Positions 38,014 to 44,184 of a DNA stretch of 64,000 nucleotides are shown here, one piece after another. Numbering within the stretch: the stretch's first letter is position 1; each line of letters starts with the position of its first letter. The notes under the pieces are model-generated. The model ran no database searches. It saw nothing but the letters and a program-made list of their open reading frames with translations, and was not told the origin of the DNA. The position numbers and the translations under genes are program-made. Origin of the DNA: Candidatus Reidiella endopervernicosa (GTDB lineage: Bacteria; Pseudomonadota; Gammaproteobacteria; GCF-013343005); the NCBI RefSeq assembly GCF_013343005.1, contig NZ_CP054491.1, positions 2,090,501 to 2,154,500 on the forward strand, written 5' to 3'.

Positions 38014-39432
38014 TTAAAGCCCCATGTTGGCGGCGATGGCTGCGGCAATGGCAGCAGCCAGCTCGCGTGGGCGTTGTCGTGTCGAGTAGTTGATCAACTC
38101 GGGGTGGCTCTCAACAAAGCCGGTATCGAAGCGTCCACTACGGAAGTCGGCCGAGCCGAGGATCTCCAGATGATAGGGGATGGTGGTCTTTACGCCGAAG
38201 ACGCCGATATCGTTGAGCGCACGCTGGGTACGGTTGAGCATCTCATCCCAGTCGAGCGCCCAGACGATCAGCTTGGCGCACATCGAATCGTAGTAGGGGG
38301 GGATTTCGTAACCGGTATAGATCGCACCGTCGGTACGCACGCCGGGACCACCCGGTGCAAAGTAGCGGGTGATGCGACCGAAGCTTGGCATGAAGTCGTT
38401 TTTCGGGTCTTCAGCATTGATACGGAACTCCATCGCCCAGCCACGACGGGTGATCTCATGCTGCTCATAACGCAGCGCCAGACCTGCGGCGATACGAATT
38501 TGCTCCTGCACAATGTCGATACCGGTGATCTGTTCGGTGACGCAGTGTTCGACCTGGAGGCGGGTGTTCATCTCCATGAAGTAGAAGTTGTCTTCGCTGT
38601 CCATCAGGAACTCGACCGTTCCAGCGTTCTCATATCCAGCGGCCTTGGCGGCGGCCACCGCATAGTCACCGATCTGTTGACGTTGTTCTTCATTGAGCTG
38701 TGGCGAGGGGGCGATCTCGATCAGTTTTTGGTGGCGACGCTGAATCGAACAGTCGCGTTCGAACAGGTGCACTACGCTGCCGTGGCTGTCGGCCAGAATC
38801 TGTGCCTCGATGTGACGCGGGTTGATGACGCACTTTTCCATGAAGACCTCGGCACTACCGAATGCCTTGGTCGCCTCGGAGATGACACGGTCGTAGTTGC
38901 TGGTGAGCGATTCGGCATCGTCGCAGCGACGAATACCACGGCCACCGCCGCCAGAGGTCGCCTTAAGCATGACTGGGTAACCGATCTTCTCAGCCAGTGT
39001 GAGCGCCTCATCGACGCTGGAGAGGTTATCTTCACTGCCGGGGGTGACAGGAATGCCGGCGGAGATCATTGTCTTGCGTGCTTCGGTCTTGTCGCCCATG
39101 CGGCTGATGACTTCCGCCTTGGGGCCGATAAAGCGAATGTTGCGCCTCGCACAGGCGGCAGAGAGTTCGGGATTCTCGGAGAGGAAACCGTAGCCGGGGT
39201 GGAGCGCGTCACAACCCGACTCGACGGCGATATTGACGATGCGGTGTACGTTCAGATAGCCAGCGACGGTGTCGGGGCCGAGCGAATAGGCCTCGTCAGC
39301 TTTTTTTACATGCAGCGCATTTCTGTCTGCTTCGGCGTAGATGGCGACCGATTTGATCCCCATTTCGGCACAGGCGCGTACAATACGCACCGCGATCTCA
39401 CCCCGATTGGCAATAAGAACTTTTTTAATCAA
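38014..39432 (-). CDS. pycA: pyruvate carboxylase subunit A (biotin carboxylase)
   Basis: 472 aa. ATP-grasp biotin carboxylase: KVLIANRGEIAVRIVRA at the N-terminus, KATSGGGGRGIRRC glycine-rich loop, EMNTRLQVEHCVTE active site. It carboxylates the biotin of PycB using bicarbonate and ATP. It could serve acetyl-CoA carboxylase (accC paralogue), but linkage to pycB decides for pyruvate carboxylase. First gene of the leftward operon pycA-pycB-yceF-yffB-dapE. Confidence 0.9.
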   Translation of the reverse strand: MIKKVLIANRGEIAVRIVRACAEMGIKSVAIYAEADRNALHVKKADEAYSLGPDTVAGYLNVHRIVNIAVESGCDALHPGYGFLSENPELSAACARRNIRFIGPKAEVISRMGDKTEARKTMISAGIPVTPGSEDNLSSVDEALTLAEKIGYPVMLKATSGGGGRGIRRCDDAESLTSNYDRVISEATKAFGSAEVFMEKCVINPRHIEAQILADSHGSVVHLFERDCSIQRRHQKLIEIAPSPQLNEEQRQQIGDYAVAAAKAAGYENAGTVEFLMDSEDNFYFMEMNTRLQVEHCVTEQITGIDIVQEQIRIAAGLALRYEQHEITRRGWAMEFRINAEDPKNDFMPSFGRITRYFAPGGPGVRTDGAIYTGYEIPPYYDSMCAKLIVWALDWDEMLNRTQRALNDIGVFGVKTTIPYHLEILGSADFRSGRFDTGFVESHPELINYSTRQRPRELAAAIAAAIAANMGL

Positions 39433-39520
39433 CTGATTTGATCCTTTCCAGGGTGCGAGATGGTGTCGTCAGAGAGAGCGATCTACAGGGCTATATAGTC
39501 GATAGAACGGCCATGCATAG

Positions 39521-39549
39521 GGTTTACGGTAAAGCTTGTTGGGTGTCAA
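39521..39549 (-). promoter_or_regulatory. putative promoter of the pycA operon
   Basis: On the minus strand: perfect -35 TTGACA (39549-39544), 17-bp spacer and a weak -10 TAAACC (39526-39521), about 90 bp from the pycA start. It is divergent from, and shares its -35 sequence with, the yceD promoter. Confidence 0.4.
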
Positions 39550-39604
39550 CCCGTCACGAGGTGACAGATGTGCCCAAACATACCGATTTATATAGAGAAA
39601 TTCT

Positions 39605-39633
39605 TTGACACACCGTAGTCAAAACAATAGAAT
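39605..39633 (+). promoter_or_regulatory. near-consensus sigma70 promoter directly before yceD
   Basis: -35 TTGACA (39605-39610), exactly 17 bp, -10 TAGAAT (39628-39633). The yceD ATG is at 39643, so a start site 6-8 bp after the -10 leaves a leader of only about 1-4 nt and no room for an RBS. Confidence 0.65.
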
Positions 39634-39642
39634 TGCGCGCTT

Positions 39643-40170
39643 ATGTTTGGCCGCTTACCCGTGTTTGTTGACCTTAAACGTTATGCTGATCAAGGCGTGA
39701 TGCTTGAAGGCGAACTCGAGTTAAGCAAAATGTCCAGGTTGTTGGAGTCGCTCACCTCCGATGAGGGGAGTATTAAGGTTGCGATCAACTTCGGCATTGA
39801 TGAGCAGCGTATTCGCTATATGCGAATCGAGGCAACTGCAGAGCTGATGTTACGTTGTCAGCGCTGTATGCAGCCAGTTGAGCAGCAGGTAGTGCTCAAT
39901 TCAGCGTTGGGGCTGATCAGCAGTGAGGCTCAGGCCGAGAGGCTGACAGGGGAGTATGAACCGTTTCTAATCCCTGATGAGCAGGCTGCGATAGCGGAGA
40001 TTATTGAGGATGAGCTGATTTTGGCGCTTCCGATTGTTCCCCGTCATGCCGATCAGCTTGCCTGTGCGCCGGTTGACTACTCATCGGACGATGCCGAACA
40101 GGAAAAGGTTGTCGAACAGGAAGAGAAGGTGAACCCCTTCGCAGCCCTGAGCGATTTGAAGAAACATTGA
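39643..40170 (+). CDS. yceD: YceD / DUF177 protein, 23S rRNA accumulation factor
   Basis: 175 aa. The DUF177 signature is the CQRCMQPV zinc-like motif (residues 74-81) and the acidic DEIL-type ending (IIEDELILALPIVPRH). It is the usual partner of rpmF and plsX. The N-terminus FGRLPVFVDLKRYADQG aligns in length with known YceD proteins, which supports the ATG at 39643 despite the lack of a leader. Confidence 0.9.
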   Translation: MFGRLPVFVDLKRYADQGVMLEGELELSKMSRLLESLTSDEGSIKVAINFGIDEQRIRYMRIEATAELMLRCQRCMQPVEQQVVLNSALGLISSEAQAERLTGEYEPFLIPDEQAAIAEIIEDELILALPIVPRHADQLACAPVDYSSDDAEQEKVVEQEEKVNPFAALSDLKKH

Positions 40171-40200
40171 ATTTTTGACAGTTAGTTAGGAGCCACGACC

Positions 40201-40380
40201 ATGGCCGTACAAAAGAACCGTAAGACCCGTTCAAGACGTGATATGCGCCGTTCACACGACGCACTCACCGCCCGCGCACTCTCAATCGATCCTACCTCTG
40301 GTGAGACTCACGTGCGTCATCACATCACCGCAGACGGCTTCTACCGTGGTCGTCGTGTCATTGCCGAAAAGGGCGAATGA
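40201..40380 (+). CDS. rpmF: 50S ribosomal protein L32
   Basis: 59 aa. [20 protein letters not shown] is the typical start, followed by [14 protein letters not shown]. This form lacks the zinc-binding cysteines found in some L32 proteins. RBS taggag 8 bp upstream. Second gene of the yceD-rpmF-plsX operon. Confidence 0.97.
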
Positions 40381-40390
40381 TGTTCCGTTT

Positions 40391-40411
40391 GGAGCGGCAT
40401 TTTGCCGCTCC
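40391..40411. terminator. hairpin between rpmF and plsX
   Basis: GGAGCGGC/GCCGCTCC, 8-bp stem with a 5-nt loop, 10 bp after the rpmF stop. No T run follows, so it more likely stabilises the rpmF mRNA end or attenuates than terminates fully. Confidence 0.5.
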
Positions 40412-40450
40412 GGACAACCTCTCCAGTACCACTAAACTAACTCGAAGGGC

Positions 40451-41479
40451 ATGGATCGGATGACGATTGTCTCTCTCGATGCCATGGGTGGCGACGCAGG
40501 CCCAGATGTCACTATCCCGGCGGCCGAAATCGCACTCGAAGCTAATCCCGATCTCAAGCTGATTCTGGTTGGCGATCAGGAATTACTCACCAAACGTATA
40601 GCGGACCTTAAGCCAGCACTGGCTGAGCGGGTTTCAATTCGTCACGCCTCGCAGAAGGTGGAGATGGATGAGTCTCCTTCATCGGCACTGCGTGGCAAGA
40701 AGGACTCCTCGATGCGGGTTGCGATCAACCTGGTTAAAGAGGGTGAGGCGGGTGCCTGTGTCAGTGCCGGAAATACCGGTGCGCTGATGGCAACGGCGCG
40801 TTTTGTGCTCAAGACTCTGCCCGGTATCGATCGTCCTGCCATCTGTACCTCGATCCCCTCGGTTGAAGGGCACAACCATATCCTTGATCTCGGCGCCAAT
40901 GTCGACTCCAGCTCTGATCACCTGTTCCAGTTTGCAGTGATGGGATCGGTGCTGGCGAGCGCGGTTGATAATATCGAATCGCCTCGTGTGGCACTGCTCA
41001 ATATTGGTGAGGAGGAGATCAAGGGTAACGATCAGGTGAAGCGCGCGGCGTCGATATTGGCTGCAAGCGAGCTTAACTACATCGGTTATATCGAGGGTGA
41101 TCAGGTCTTTAAAGGTGGTTCGGACGTAGTGGTCTGCGACGGTTTTGTCGGCAACGTGATGTTGAAGACGACCGAGGGGGTGGCGAAGATGATCAGTCAC
41201 TTCATGAAGGAGGCCTTCATGCGTGGTCCGCTCTCCAAATTGGCCGCGGTTATTGCGATGCCGGTGCTGAAATCTTTCCGTAAGCGTATCGACCCGCGCC
41301 GTTATAACGGTGCCAGCCTGCTCGGCCTGCGCGGTATTGTGGTGAAGAGCCACGGTGGTGCTGATGCTTTCTCATTTGCCAACGCGATCAAGATTGCCAC
41401 ATTGGAGGTGAGCAAGTCGGTACCTGAGCGCATCCACTCTGAGCTGGAAACGCTACTAACAAGAAGAGAAGCGGTTTGA
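40451..41479 (+). CDS. plsX: phosphate acyltransferase PlsX
   Basis: 342 aa from ATG 40451; a second ATG at 40460 gives the more usual [12 protein letters not shown] start. Contains [18 protein letters not shown] and the C-terminal [14 protein letters not shown]. Makes acyl-phosphate from acyl-ACP for phospholipid synthesis. Its stop overlaps the fabH start. Intact. Confidence 0.95.
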
Positions 41480-42444
41480 TCTATTCGCGAATTGCAGGAA
41501 CCGGCGGACATCTACCGGAGAAGGTGCTGAGCAACGGCGATCTGGAAAAGATGGTCGATACCAACGATCAGTGGATACGTGATCGCACCGGCATCGAGAA
41601 ACGCCACATCGCCGCTGAGGGTGAGACCACCTGTGACCTGGCCGAAGTGGCCGCACGCAAGGCGATTGAGGCTGCAGGTCGCAGTGTCGATGAGATCGAT
41701 CTGATTATCGTTGCGACCACCACCCCTGATCGCGTCTTCCCGAGTACTGCCTGCCTGCTACAACAGCGACTTGACATCCACGGCTGTGCTGCGTTTGATA
41801 TCCAAGCGGTCTGTACCGGTTTTGTCTATGCCCTTGGTGTGGCCGATAAATTCATTAAGAGCGGTTCGGCCAAATGCGCGCTCGTCGTCGGTGCCGAGAC
41901 CCTGTCACGCATTGTTGACTGGAATGATCGCACCACCTGTGTGCTGTTTGGTGATGGTGCTGGTGCGGTGGTGCTAGAGGCATCCGAAGAGCCCGGTATT
42001 CTCTCCACCCATCTGCACGCTGATGGTAAGTATGAGTCGCTGCTAACGGTTAATAGTGGTGTCTCCACTAATTATCAGCAGGTGCTCGACCACGGTGCCT
42101 ATATCGAGATGCGTGGTAACGAGGTCTTCAAGATGGCGGTTAATACTCTGGGTCGCATCGTTGATGAGACTCTCGCCGCTAATAATATGGAGAAGAGCGA
42201 TATCGACTGGCTGGTGCCGCATCAGGCCAATACCCGCATTATCGGTGCGACGGCCAGAAAGCTGAAAATGTCGATGGATCATGTGGTGGTCACGGTTGAC
42301 CAACACGGCAATACCTCTGCCGCCTCAGTACCGTTGGCGCTTGACGCTGCTGTGCGCGATGGCCGTATTAAGCGCGGTGAGACGCTGTTGTTGGAGGCGT
42401 TTGGCGGCGGCTTTACCTGGGGCTCAGCGCTACTGAAGTTCTGA
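41476..42444 (+). CDS. fabH: beta-ketoacyl-ACP synthase III
   Basis: 322 aa, TTG start at 41476 overlapping the plsX stop (TTGA). Catalytic Cys in [11 protein letters not shown], His in VPHQANTRI and Asn in [10 protein letters not shown]. Condenses acetyl-CoA with malonyl-ACP to start fatty acid synthesis. Intact. Confidence 0.95.
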
Positions 42445-42499: not shown

Positions 42500-43441
42500 A
42501 TGAACTTTGCTTTTGTCTTTCCCGGTCAGGGATCACAATCGGTCGGTATGCTCGCCGATCTGGCAGAGGGCCATCCGGTCGTCGCCGATACTTTTGCCGC
42601 AGCATCCGATGCGCTCGGCTACGACCTCTGGAAACTGATCCAGGATGGTCCTGTAGAAGAGCTTAATAAAACCCATATCACCCAGCCTGCGATGCTGGTC
42701 TCCGGTGTTGCCGTCTGGCGCGCCTGGCAGGCAAAGAGCGGTGCCACTCCTGCGGTGATGGCGGGTCACAGCCTCGGTGAGTACACCGCGCTGGTCTGTG
42801 CAGGGGCGCTCGCTTTTGAGGATGCGGTCAAACTGGTCGAGAAGCGTGGGCTGCTGATGCAGGAAGCGGTTCCGGCGGGTGAGGGTGCCATGGCGGCAAT
42901 TCTTGGTCTCGACGATGAGGCTGTTATGAGTGTTTGTGCCACAGCGGCAGAGGGTGAGGTCGCAGAAGCGGTTAACTTCAACTCGCCGGGGCAGGTGGTT
43001 ATTGCAGGCAGTAAGGGTGCAATTGAGCGCGCCATGGTGCTGGCCAAGGAGCAGGGTGCAAAGCGTGCACTGCCGCTGCCTGTCAGTGTGCCGTCGCACT
43101 GTGCGCTGATGAAACCTGCGGCTGAGAAGATGGCCGAGGCGTTAGCGGCGACCGAAATCAAGGTGCCTGCAATTCCCGTTATTCATAATGCGGATGTTGT
43201 CAGCCACAACAGTGGTGATGATATTCGCGATGCACTGAAGCGTCAGCTACATATGCCGGTCCGCTGGGTTGAAACGGTTGAGAAGATCAATGCCGACGGC
43301 ATCGGCACTTTGATTGAAGGTGGTCCGGGTAAGGTGCTTGCGGGGCTGAACAAACGTATCGTCAAGACAATGACTGCAATGCCGGTCTTTAGCGGTGATA
43401 CGCTGGAGAAGGCGTTGGCTGAGATTGGAGGAGAAGCGTAA
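42500..43441 (+). CDS. fabD: malonyl-CoA:ACP transacylase
   Basis: 313 aa. FPGQGSQSVGML start, nucleophile Ser in AGHSLGEYTAL, His in PVSVPSHCALM and a GGPGKVLAGL C-terminal motif. The stop codon overlaps the fabG ATG by one base, giving coupled translation. Confidence 0.95.
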   Translation: MNFAFVFPGQGSQSVGMLADLAEGHPVVADTFAAASDALGYDLWKLIQDGPVEELNKTHITQPAMLVSGVAVWRAWQAKSGATPAVMAGHSLGEYTALVCAGALAFEDAVKLVEKRGLLMQEAVPAGEGAMAAILGLDDEAVMSVCATAAEGEVAEAVNFNSPGQVVIAGSKGAIERAMVLAKEQGAKRALPLPVSVPSHCALMKPAAEKMAEALAATEIKVPAIPVIHNADVVSHNSGDDIRDALKRQLHMPVRWVETVEKINADGIGTLIEGGPGKVLAGLNKRIVKTMTAMPVFSGDTLEKALAEIGGEA

Positions 43442-44184
43442 TGAGCTTAGAGAATCAGATTGCACTGGTTACCGGTGCCAGCCGAGGTATCGGTCAGGCA
43501 ACTGCCCACGAGCTGGGTCGTATGGGTGCGACCGTGATCGGCACTGCGACCAGCGAAGGTGGTGCGGAGAAGATCGGTGCGGCGATGGCTGAAGCGGGTG
43601 TTAAGGGGGTGGGTCGGATGCTGAATGTGACCGATCAGGCCTCGATCGATACTCTGCTTAAGGCGATCGGTGATGAGTTCGGAGCGCCGACTATTTTGGT
43701 CAATAATGCCGGAATAACCCGCGATAACCTGCTGATGCGTATGAAGGATGATGAGTGGGATTCGATTATCGATACCAATCTCAGTTCAGTCTTTCGCCTC
43801 AGTCGCGCCTGTCTGCGCGGCATGATGAAGGCGCGCCAGGGGCGCATTATCAGTATTGCGTCAGTGGTTGGTTCAATGGGTAACGCCGGTCAGACCAACT
43901 ACGCGGCGGCCAAGGCGGGCATTATGGGCTTTACCAAGTCACTGGCACGTGAAGTTGGTTCACGTGGTATTACTGTGAATACCGTGGCGCCCGGCTTTAT
44001 CGATACCGATATGACCCGCGCCCTTCCCGATGAGCAGAAGAAGGCGCTGCTGGATGTGATCCCGCTCAATCGTCTCGGTTCGGCCGAGGAGATTGCCCAG
44101 TCGGTTGGCTTCTTTGCATCGCCGGCTGCGGCCTATATCACCGGTGAGACGCTGCATGTAAATGGCGGAATGTACATGGGGTAA
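43441..44184 (+). CDS. fabG: 3-oxoacyl-ACP reductase
   Basis: 247 aa SDR. NADPH-binding TGASRGIGQATA, catalytic Ser in SIASVVGSMGNAGQ, YxxxK as NYAAAKAG. The end VNGGMYMG is typical of FabG. A hairpin CGACTC/GAGTCG at 44186-44201 follows the stop directly. Confidence 0.95.
   Translation: MSLENQIALVTGASRGIGQATAHELGRMGATVIGTATSEGGAEKIGAAMAEAGVKGVGRMLNVTDQASIDTLLKAIGDEFGAPTILVNNAGITRDNLLMRMKDDEWDSIIDTNLSSVFRLSRACLRGMMKARQGRIISIASVVGSMGNAGQTNYAAAKAGIMGFTKSLAREVGSRGITVNTVAPGFIDTDMTRALPDEQKKALLDVIPLNRLGSAEEIAQSVGFFASPAAAYITGETLHVNGGMYMG

Follow-up and report, generated by a model that had tools for sequence, protein, structure and literature searches.

The best-known leaderless mRNAs of enterobacteria are those of phage and mobile-element regulators. 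Enterobacterial leaderless mRNAs (lambda cI, Tn1721 tetR, racR, dicA, pgpA, rhlB) share with the gene described here an AUG start, the lack of a Shine-Dalgarno (SD) sequence and a leader of 0-4 nt, which for yceD is predicted. Leaderless mRNAs have been termed rare in enterobacteria (PMC9031893), with 18 counted in E. coli (PMC3415461), 33 in Salmonella (PMC3293720) and 83 in Klebsiella (PMC3536570). An RNA-seq map of E. coli that defines leaderless as a leader of < 10 nt names dicA, pgpA, racR, rhlB, and ymfK, and yceD is absent from that list as excerpted (PMC4681348). Also alike are the TA-led genes (Zheng et al. 2011, PMC3160421), in which a -10-like signal precedes the start codon by about 10-12 nt and is read as leaderless. 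Unlike our reading of yceD, the excerpted E. coli K-12 run of those authors contained SD-like and atypical genes only.

For E. coli yceD, one clause of PMC4378010 says that the gene is without a 5' leader. The same paper reports low translation of yceD relative to the next gene, a trait common to the leaderless mRNAs listed above. Two E. coli promoters, yceDp1 and yceDp2, are credited to a 1989 paper (PMC13060810), and a yceD knockout leads to lower 23S rRNA (PMC5049393).

At the locus level, the window (the whole 64,000-nt stretch from Candidatus Reidiella endopervernicosa analysed here) has the same gene order as the yceD (g30k)-rpmF operon of E. coli. On the + strand, yceD (39643..40170), the predicted leaderless first gene, is followed by rpmF for L32 (40201..40380), plsX (40451..41479), fabH (41476..42444), fabD (42500..43441), and fabG (43441..44184), the last five identified by profile matches. 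Thus, yceD heads an operon with rpmF and fatty acid genes, as the sequence-only reading had proposed. The divergent upstream neighbour, yceF in E. coli, is here a biotin carboxylase subunit gene (38014..39432, - strand) that bounds a 210-bp intergenic region. At the DNA level, the locus presented no similarity to E. coli genomes, and no Rfam family matched 39400-40300, where cis-acting RNAs were sought.

The yceD product (DUF177, 23S rRNA accumulation protein) matched Pfam PF02620 with E 2.1e-18 and 66.9 bits, above the cut-off of 33.2. It matched NCBIfam PRK11193 (YceD) with E 6.8e-33 and 114.1 bits, which is below the equivalog cut-off of 192. Since the gene order yceD-rpmF-plsX-fabHDG supports orthology, we term the product a DUF177/YceD-family protein, with no claim to the equivalog.

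Sequence inspection places TTGACA-N17-TAGAAT directly before yceD on the + strand, with the -35 box at 39605..39610, the -10 box at 39628..39633 and the end of the latter 9 nt before the ATG at 39643. The hexamers match the sigma-70 consensus at 11 of 12 positions, and the 17-nt spacer lies within the required 16-18 nt. A scan of 38500-41500 found this as the only promoter-like site (9/12 matches expected by chance in such a 3-kb scan: 1.5), and no other match in the region upstream of it exceeded 8/12. The coordinates in the sequence-only reading are therefore correct, and the distance of 9 nt falls within the about 7-12 nt expected for leaderless genes. The TAG inside the -10 box is a stop in the yceD frame, so no earlier in-frame start is possible. 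E. coli yceD has TTGACT-N17-TAATAT-GCGCGCCCT-ATG, with the same 9 nt before the ATG and hexamers at 9/12 versus 11/12 in the window. Serratia, Proteus, and Aeromonas are like E. coli, with TTGACT and a TAATAT-type -10 box before the ATG.

Across the complete genome, a single contig of 3,446,950 bases, TTGACA-N15-19-TANNAT-N7-11-ATG occurs at one place, which is yceD, and a reversed-pattern control also gave one. Without the ATG condition, TTGACA-N15-19-TANNAT is found at three places of the same 3.45-Mb genome. Across 140 class genomes, the strict pattern TTGACA-N17/18-TANNAT-N9-ATG was found at 65 places in 62 genomes, against 13 for the reversed control. The yceD start accounts for 52 of them and the other 13 lie elsewhere (positions from protein searches; G153 by eye). 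As the 13 places outside yceD equal the 13 of the control, the entire excess of this layout comes from one gene.

We found the layout to be the rule across Gammaproteobacteria rather than an oddity of one genome, as the sequence-only reading had taken it to be. In 29 other class genomes (protein search), nearly every yceD had the same promoter layout. For each of 143 class loci, we took the best core promoter in the range of 0-90 nt; its -10 box ended exactly 9 nt before the ATG in 97 loci, 10 nt in 8, and 8 nt in 6. A match of at least 9/12 at 8-10 nt was present at 111/143 yceD starts versus 12/8461 of the remaining ATGs in these loci, both strands counted. In a set of 170 class loci, obtained by adding 27 to the former set and part of which are best-scoring YceD matches with no random draw, 135 had a core promoter of at least 9/12 ending 8-10 nt before the ATG, and 141 had one at 7-11 nt. 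The spacing is thus kept in the relatives, and a match occurs in one or more loci under 75 of the 92 family labels (139 of the 170 loci mapped).

Six of the 170 loci (L202, L204, L207, L209, L211, L213) had entered the set because the pattern had already been found there; leaving them out gives 129/164 at 8-10 nt. L001 and L042, which duplicate L002 and L007, were omitted. The 170 also exclude L210, which by eye is a yceD site. The starts of L027 and L081 were set by hand to the first in-frame ATG in the 170-locus set, while the 143-locus set kept a wrong start for L027.

For a sample of GTDB-named genomes, a search of the contigs with a single YceD protein found no match, and a search with an 11-protein alignment found 577 loci, of which 80 were kept. 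By script, 75 of these 80 presented the promoter at the usual distance. The loci include Pseudomonas, Stutzerimonas, Halomonas, Methylophaga, Marinobacterium, Methylomicrobium, Dokdonella, Enterobacter, and Pantoea. In four of the five script misses (L251, L267, L276, L282), inspection by eye places the site 9 nt ahead of an in-frame ATG which the script had skipped. L312 (a Porticoccaceae MAG) is the sole one without an ATG at the usual place; it keeps promoter and discriminator, and its nearest start lies about 20 nt beyond. In Methylophaga-type loci (L242, L244, L246, L247, L250, L257, L272, L303), we observed a perfect TATAAT with a poor, TTTGCT-like -35 box and 10 nt to the ATG.

In the 170-locus set, 35 loci fail the strict test, some as near misses and others as clearly different. 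The near misses by spacing have 11 nt (L040, L081) or 7 nt (L058, L104). L036, L082, and L086 are near misses too: they read ATTATG, with 9 nt from the end of the -10 box to the ATT and 12 nt to the ATG, which would mean a leader of 3 nt or else initiation at AUU. For L135, the ATG 9 nt below the promoter would fall 81 nt (27 codons) above the start set by script, in an open frame. Finally, L090, L101, and L124 have no such promoter at the start, and L100, L130, and L235 have a -10-like box only.

With these comparisons, it becomes barely credible that the site looks like a promoter by accident or that the start codon was misassigned. Weak 9/12 matches do arise by chance, at the rate given above for a 3-kb scan. 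An accidental site is contradicted by the conservation across the class and the genome-wide reversed control, by which we ruled out a chance motif or single-genome oddity. It is also contradicted by the protein itself, conserved from codon 4-5 on and at a constant distance from the ATG. The ATG proposed from the alignment with YceD N-termini hence stands, and a later start codon, named beforehand as a possible refutation, was dropped as unlikely on the same conservation. The start codon is ATG in 135/135 class hits, which is weak for the class given that the script preferred ATG; in the window, the ATG is read directly.

Regarding translation signals, the SD pairing energy in the 20 nt before the yceD ATG is +0.2 kcal/mol in the window, so the sequence-only reading rightly saw no ribosome-binding site. 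In the class, its median is -0.4 kcal/mol, with -4 or lower in 8 of 135 loci. For rpmF, preceded by a normal SD sequence (TTAGGAG), the energy is -6.5 kcal/mol in the window and -6.8 kcal/mol as class median, with -4 or lower in 86 of 88 loci. Thus, yceD lacks an SD sequence as leaderless mRNAs do. Folding is weaker over the 40 nt that begin with the ATG than in windows inside the gene (-6.3 vs. -9.7 kcal/mol, n = 132). An accessible 5' AUG would lead one to expect this, although gene starts in general are often weakly structured.

These energies bear on a second explanation, which accepts the promoter as genuine and conserved but derives most YceD from longer transcripts that start upstream and carry a leader; the promoter at the start codon would then act chiefly for rpmF and the lipid genes. 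Two facts from E. coli would agree with it: the two named yceD promoters and the absence of yceD from the excerpted list of leaders of < 10 nt. However, a leader would be of no help to genes without an SD sequence, and the fixed 9-nt spacing would be left without a reason. A start further upstream was also named as a refutation in the sequence-only reading; another promoter of at least 10/12 lies 20-250 nt upstream in only 2 of 128 class loci, and the upstream region in the window has nothing above 8/12. The E. coli upstream region likewise has no promoter above 8/12 besides the one at the start codon. We regard this explanation as unlikely.

At the base level, the class promoters are well defined. 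The -35 box is TTGACA in 100 and TTGACT in 16 of 134 class hits, pairwise identity is 47% in the core promoter versus 25% upstream, and the shortened consensus of 81 loci reads ttt.cTTTGACAg...TA..AT.ccccGCtTATG. Just above the -35 box, the AT content is 0.558, compared with 0.478 further up (n = 132). G+C at -8..-4 is 0.917 over all class hits versus 0.572 in the CDS, and low-GC loci are also GC-rich there (0.86, n = 17). In the window, a GC-rich discriminator and pyrimidine tract of 9 nt, TGCGCGCTT (39634..39642, + strand), follows the class base pattern and abuts the ATG. The discriminator itself, TGCGCG, is GC-rich as in stringently controlled promoters.

RNA polymerase prefers to start at a purine that follows a pyrimidine. 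Among the loci with 9-nt spacing (n = 117), the base at -4, the sixth after the -10 box, is G in 74%, and it is followed by C in 82% at -3, C or T in 100% at -2, and T in 96% at -1. Since the seventh to ninth bases are pyrimidines, the candidate starts are the A of the ATG (tenth base) and the G at -4. This conservation favours the A of the ATG, and we place the predicted transcription start at 39639..39643 (+ strand), with A39643 as the likeliest base and G39639, giving a 4-nt leader, as the main alternative. Of the leader of 1-4 nt proposed in the sequence-only reading, the near-zero length holds up as a prediction; the class bases point to 0 nt, and up to 4 nt would be possible. A discriminator of 9 nt, implied by a start at this A, is longer than the commonest. 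Where the spacing is 7-8 nt, the CTT tract is incomplete, which by eye likewise keeps the A within reach. The conserved pyrimidines before the ATG could also have another role, as a dipyrimidine before starts has been reported for Proteobacteria generally (PMC3160421).

The spacing alone would also permit transcription to begin slightly further on, within the opening codons, giving transcripts that have no AUG and from which rpmF but no YceD is expressed. We consider this very improbable: a start in codon 1 would be at least 11 nt past the -10 box, conservation of pyrimidine-pyrimidine-A points to the A of the ATG, and most loci would have no good promoter for yceD.

Taking all the comparisons of DNA and protein together, we hold it highly probable that the site works as a genuine sigma-70 promoter, that its transcripts begin at the yceD start codon or up to 4 nt before it, and that selection maintains this geometry across Gammaproteobacteria. 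The simplest reason for the fixed spacing would be that promoter and start codon occupy the same few bases, so that an indel between them would either lengthen an SD-less leader or remove the AUG.

Outside Gammaproteobacteria, the arrangement is essentially absent. In 48 loci from other classes of the phylum, the layout was present at the script-chosen start in 0/48. Because these starts are poorly anchored, we tested all 248 in-frame candidate starts and obtained a 9/12 match in one locus only (L175); 44 of the 48 loci have an SD energy of -4 or lower before some candidate start. In the sister family f183 (L171, L175, L177, L198), TTGACC-N16-GATAAT-GCGCGC lies 31-32 nt before the yceD ATG, with GGAGGT between them. 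By its sequence, this is a similar promoter type with a normal leader, a natural leadered counterpart. Hence, the absent leader in Gammaproteobacteria looks like a specific state and no by-product of the promoter.

At the functional level, RNA polymerase would bind TTGACA/TAnnAT at yceD, and the rRNA-type GC-rich discriminator (GCGC) together with the CYT tract would shift the first transcribed base to the A of the AUG. Ribosomes could then use the AUG at the 5' end of the new mRNA directly, without an SD sequence, by a leaderless 70S-type initiation as described in the E. coli literature. Little YceD would be made per transcript, while L32 would be translated strongly from its own SD sequence on the same mRNA, a low YceD:L32 ratio that may exist by design. 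Growth-rate or ppGpp control may act through the discriminator, as GC-rich discriminators have been linked to ppGpp repression (PMC3293720). The stringent rRNA and tRNA promoters, with their GCGC discriminator, are alike in the GC-rich stretch from -10 box to start and in the link to a ribosomal gene operon. Unlike in those promoters, the yceD discriminator runs into the start codon, and its ppGpp response is a prediction.

A bolder and less likely proposal is that the leaderless start is a conserved control device. YceD would be made only by leaderless initiation on mRNAs from its own GC-discriminator promoter, so that its synthesis reads ppGpp (at transcription) and free 70S ribosomes, initiation factors, or initiator tRNA (at translation), with feedback on large-subunit assembly. 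If true, a class-wide sensor of ribosome state would head the L32/fatty-acid operon.

Leaderless genes of the lambda cI type are scattered and often belong to phages or mobile elements, whereas yceD heads a housekeeping ribosome/lipid operon with a class-wide geometry. As a housekeeping gene that is present in E. coli K-12 and keeps its spacing over dozens of families, yceD could serve as a natural non-phage model of leaderless initiation. It also provides a comparative argument that leaderlessness can be under selection, and a testable link among ribosome assembly, ppGpp control, and lipid synthesis genes. For the class-wide conservation, we found no report in the literature searched; already in print is the one clause on E. 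coli yceD in PMC4378010.

Some minor observations concern the records and the neighbouring gene. A MAG titled Rhodobacteraceae (L243) presented the gammaproteobacterial yceD layout; the title could be in error, or the bin could be mixed. Among the E. coli records, one of 377 kb that is labelled a plasmid (CP088398.1, L032) carries rne, rluC, yceF, yceD, and fab genes and is probably a chromosome piece. In the window, the divergent biotin carboxylase subunit gene has an apparent TTG start (39432, - strand), which GGAAAGGAT precedes. Antisense to this gene runs a 455-aa open frame (38074-39441, + strand), probably a shadow frame of codon bias.
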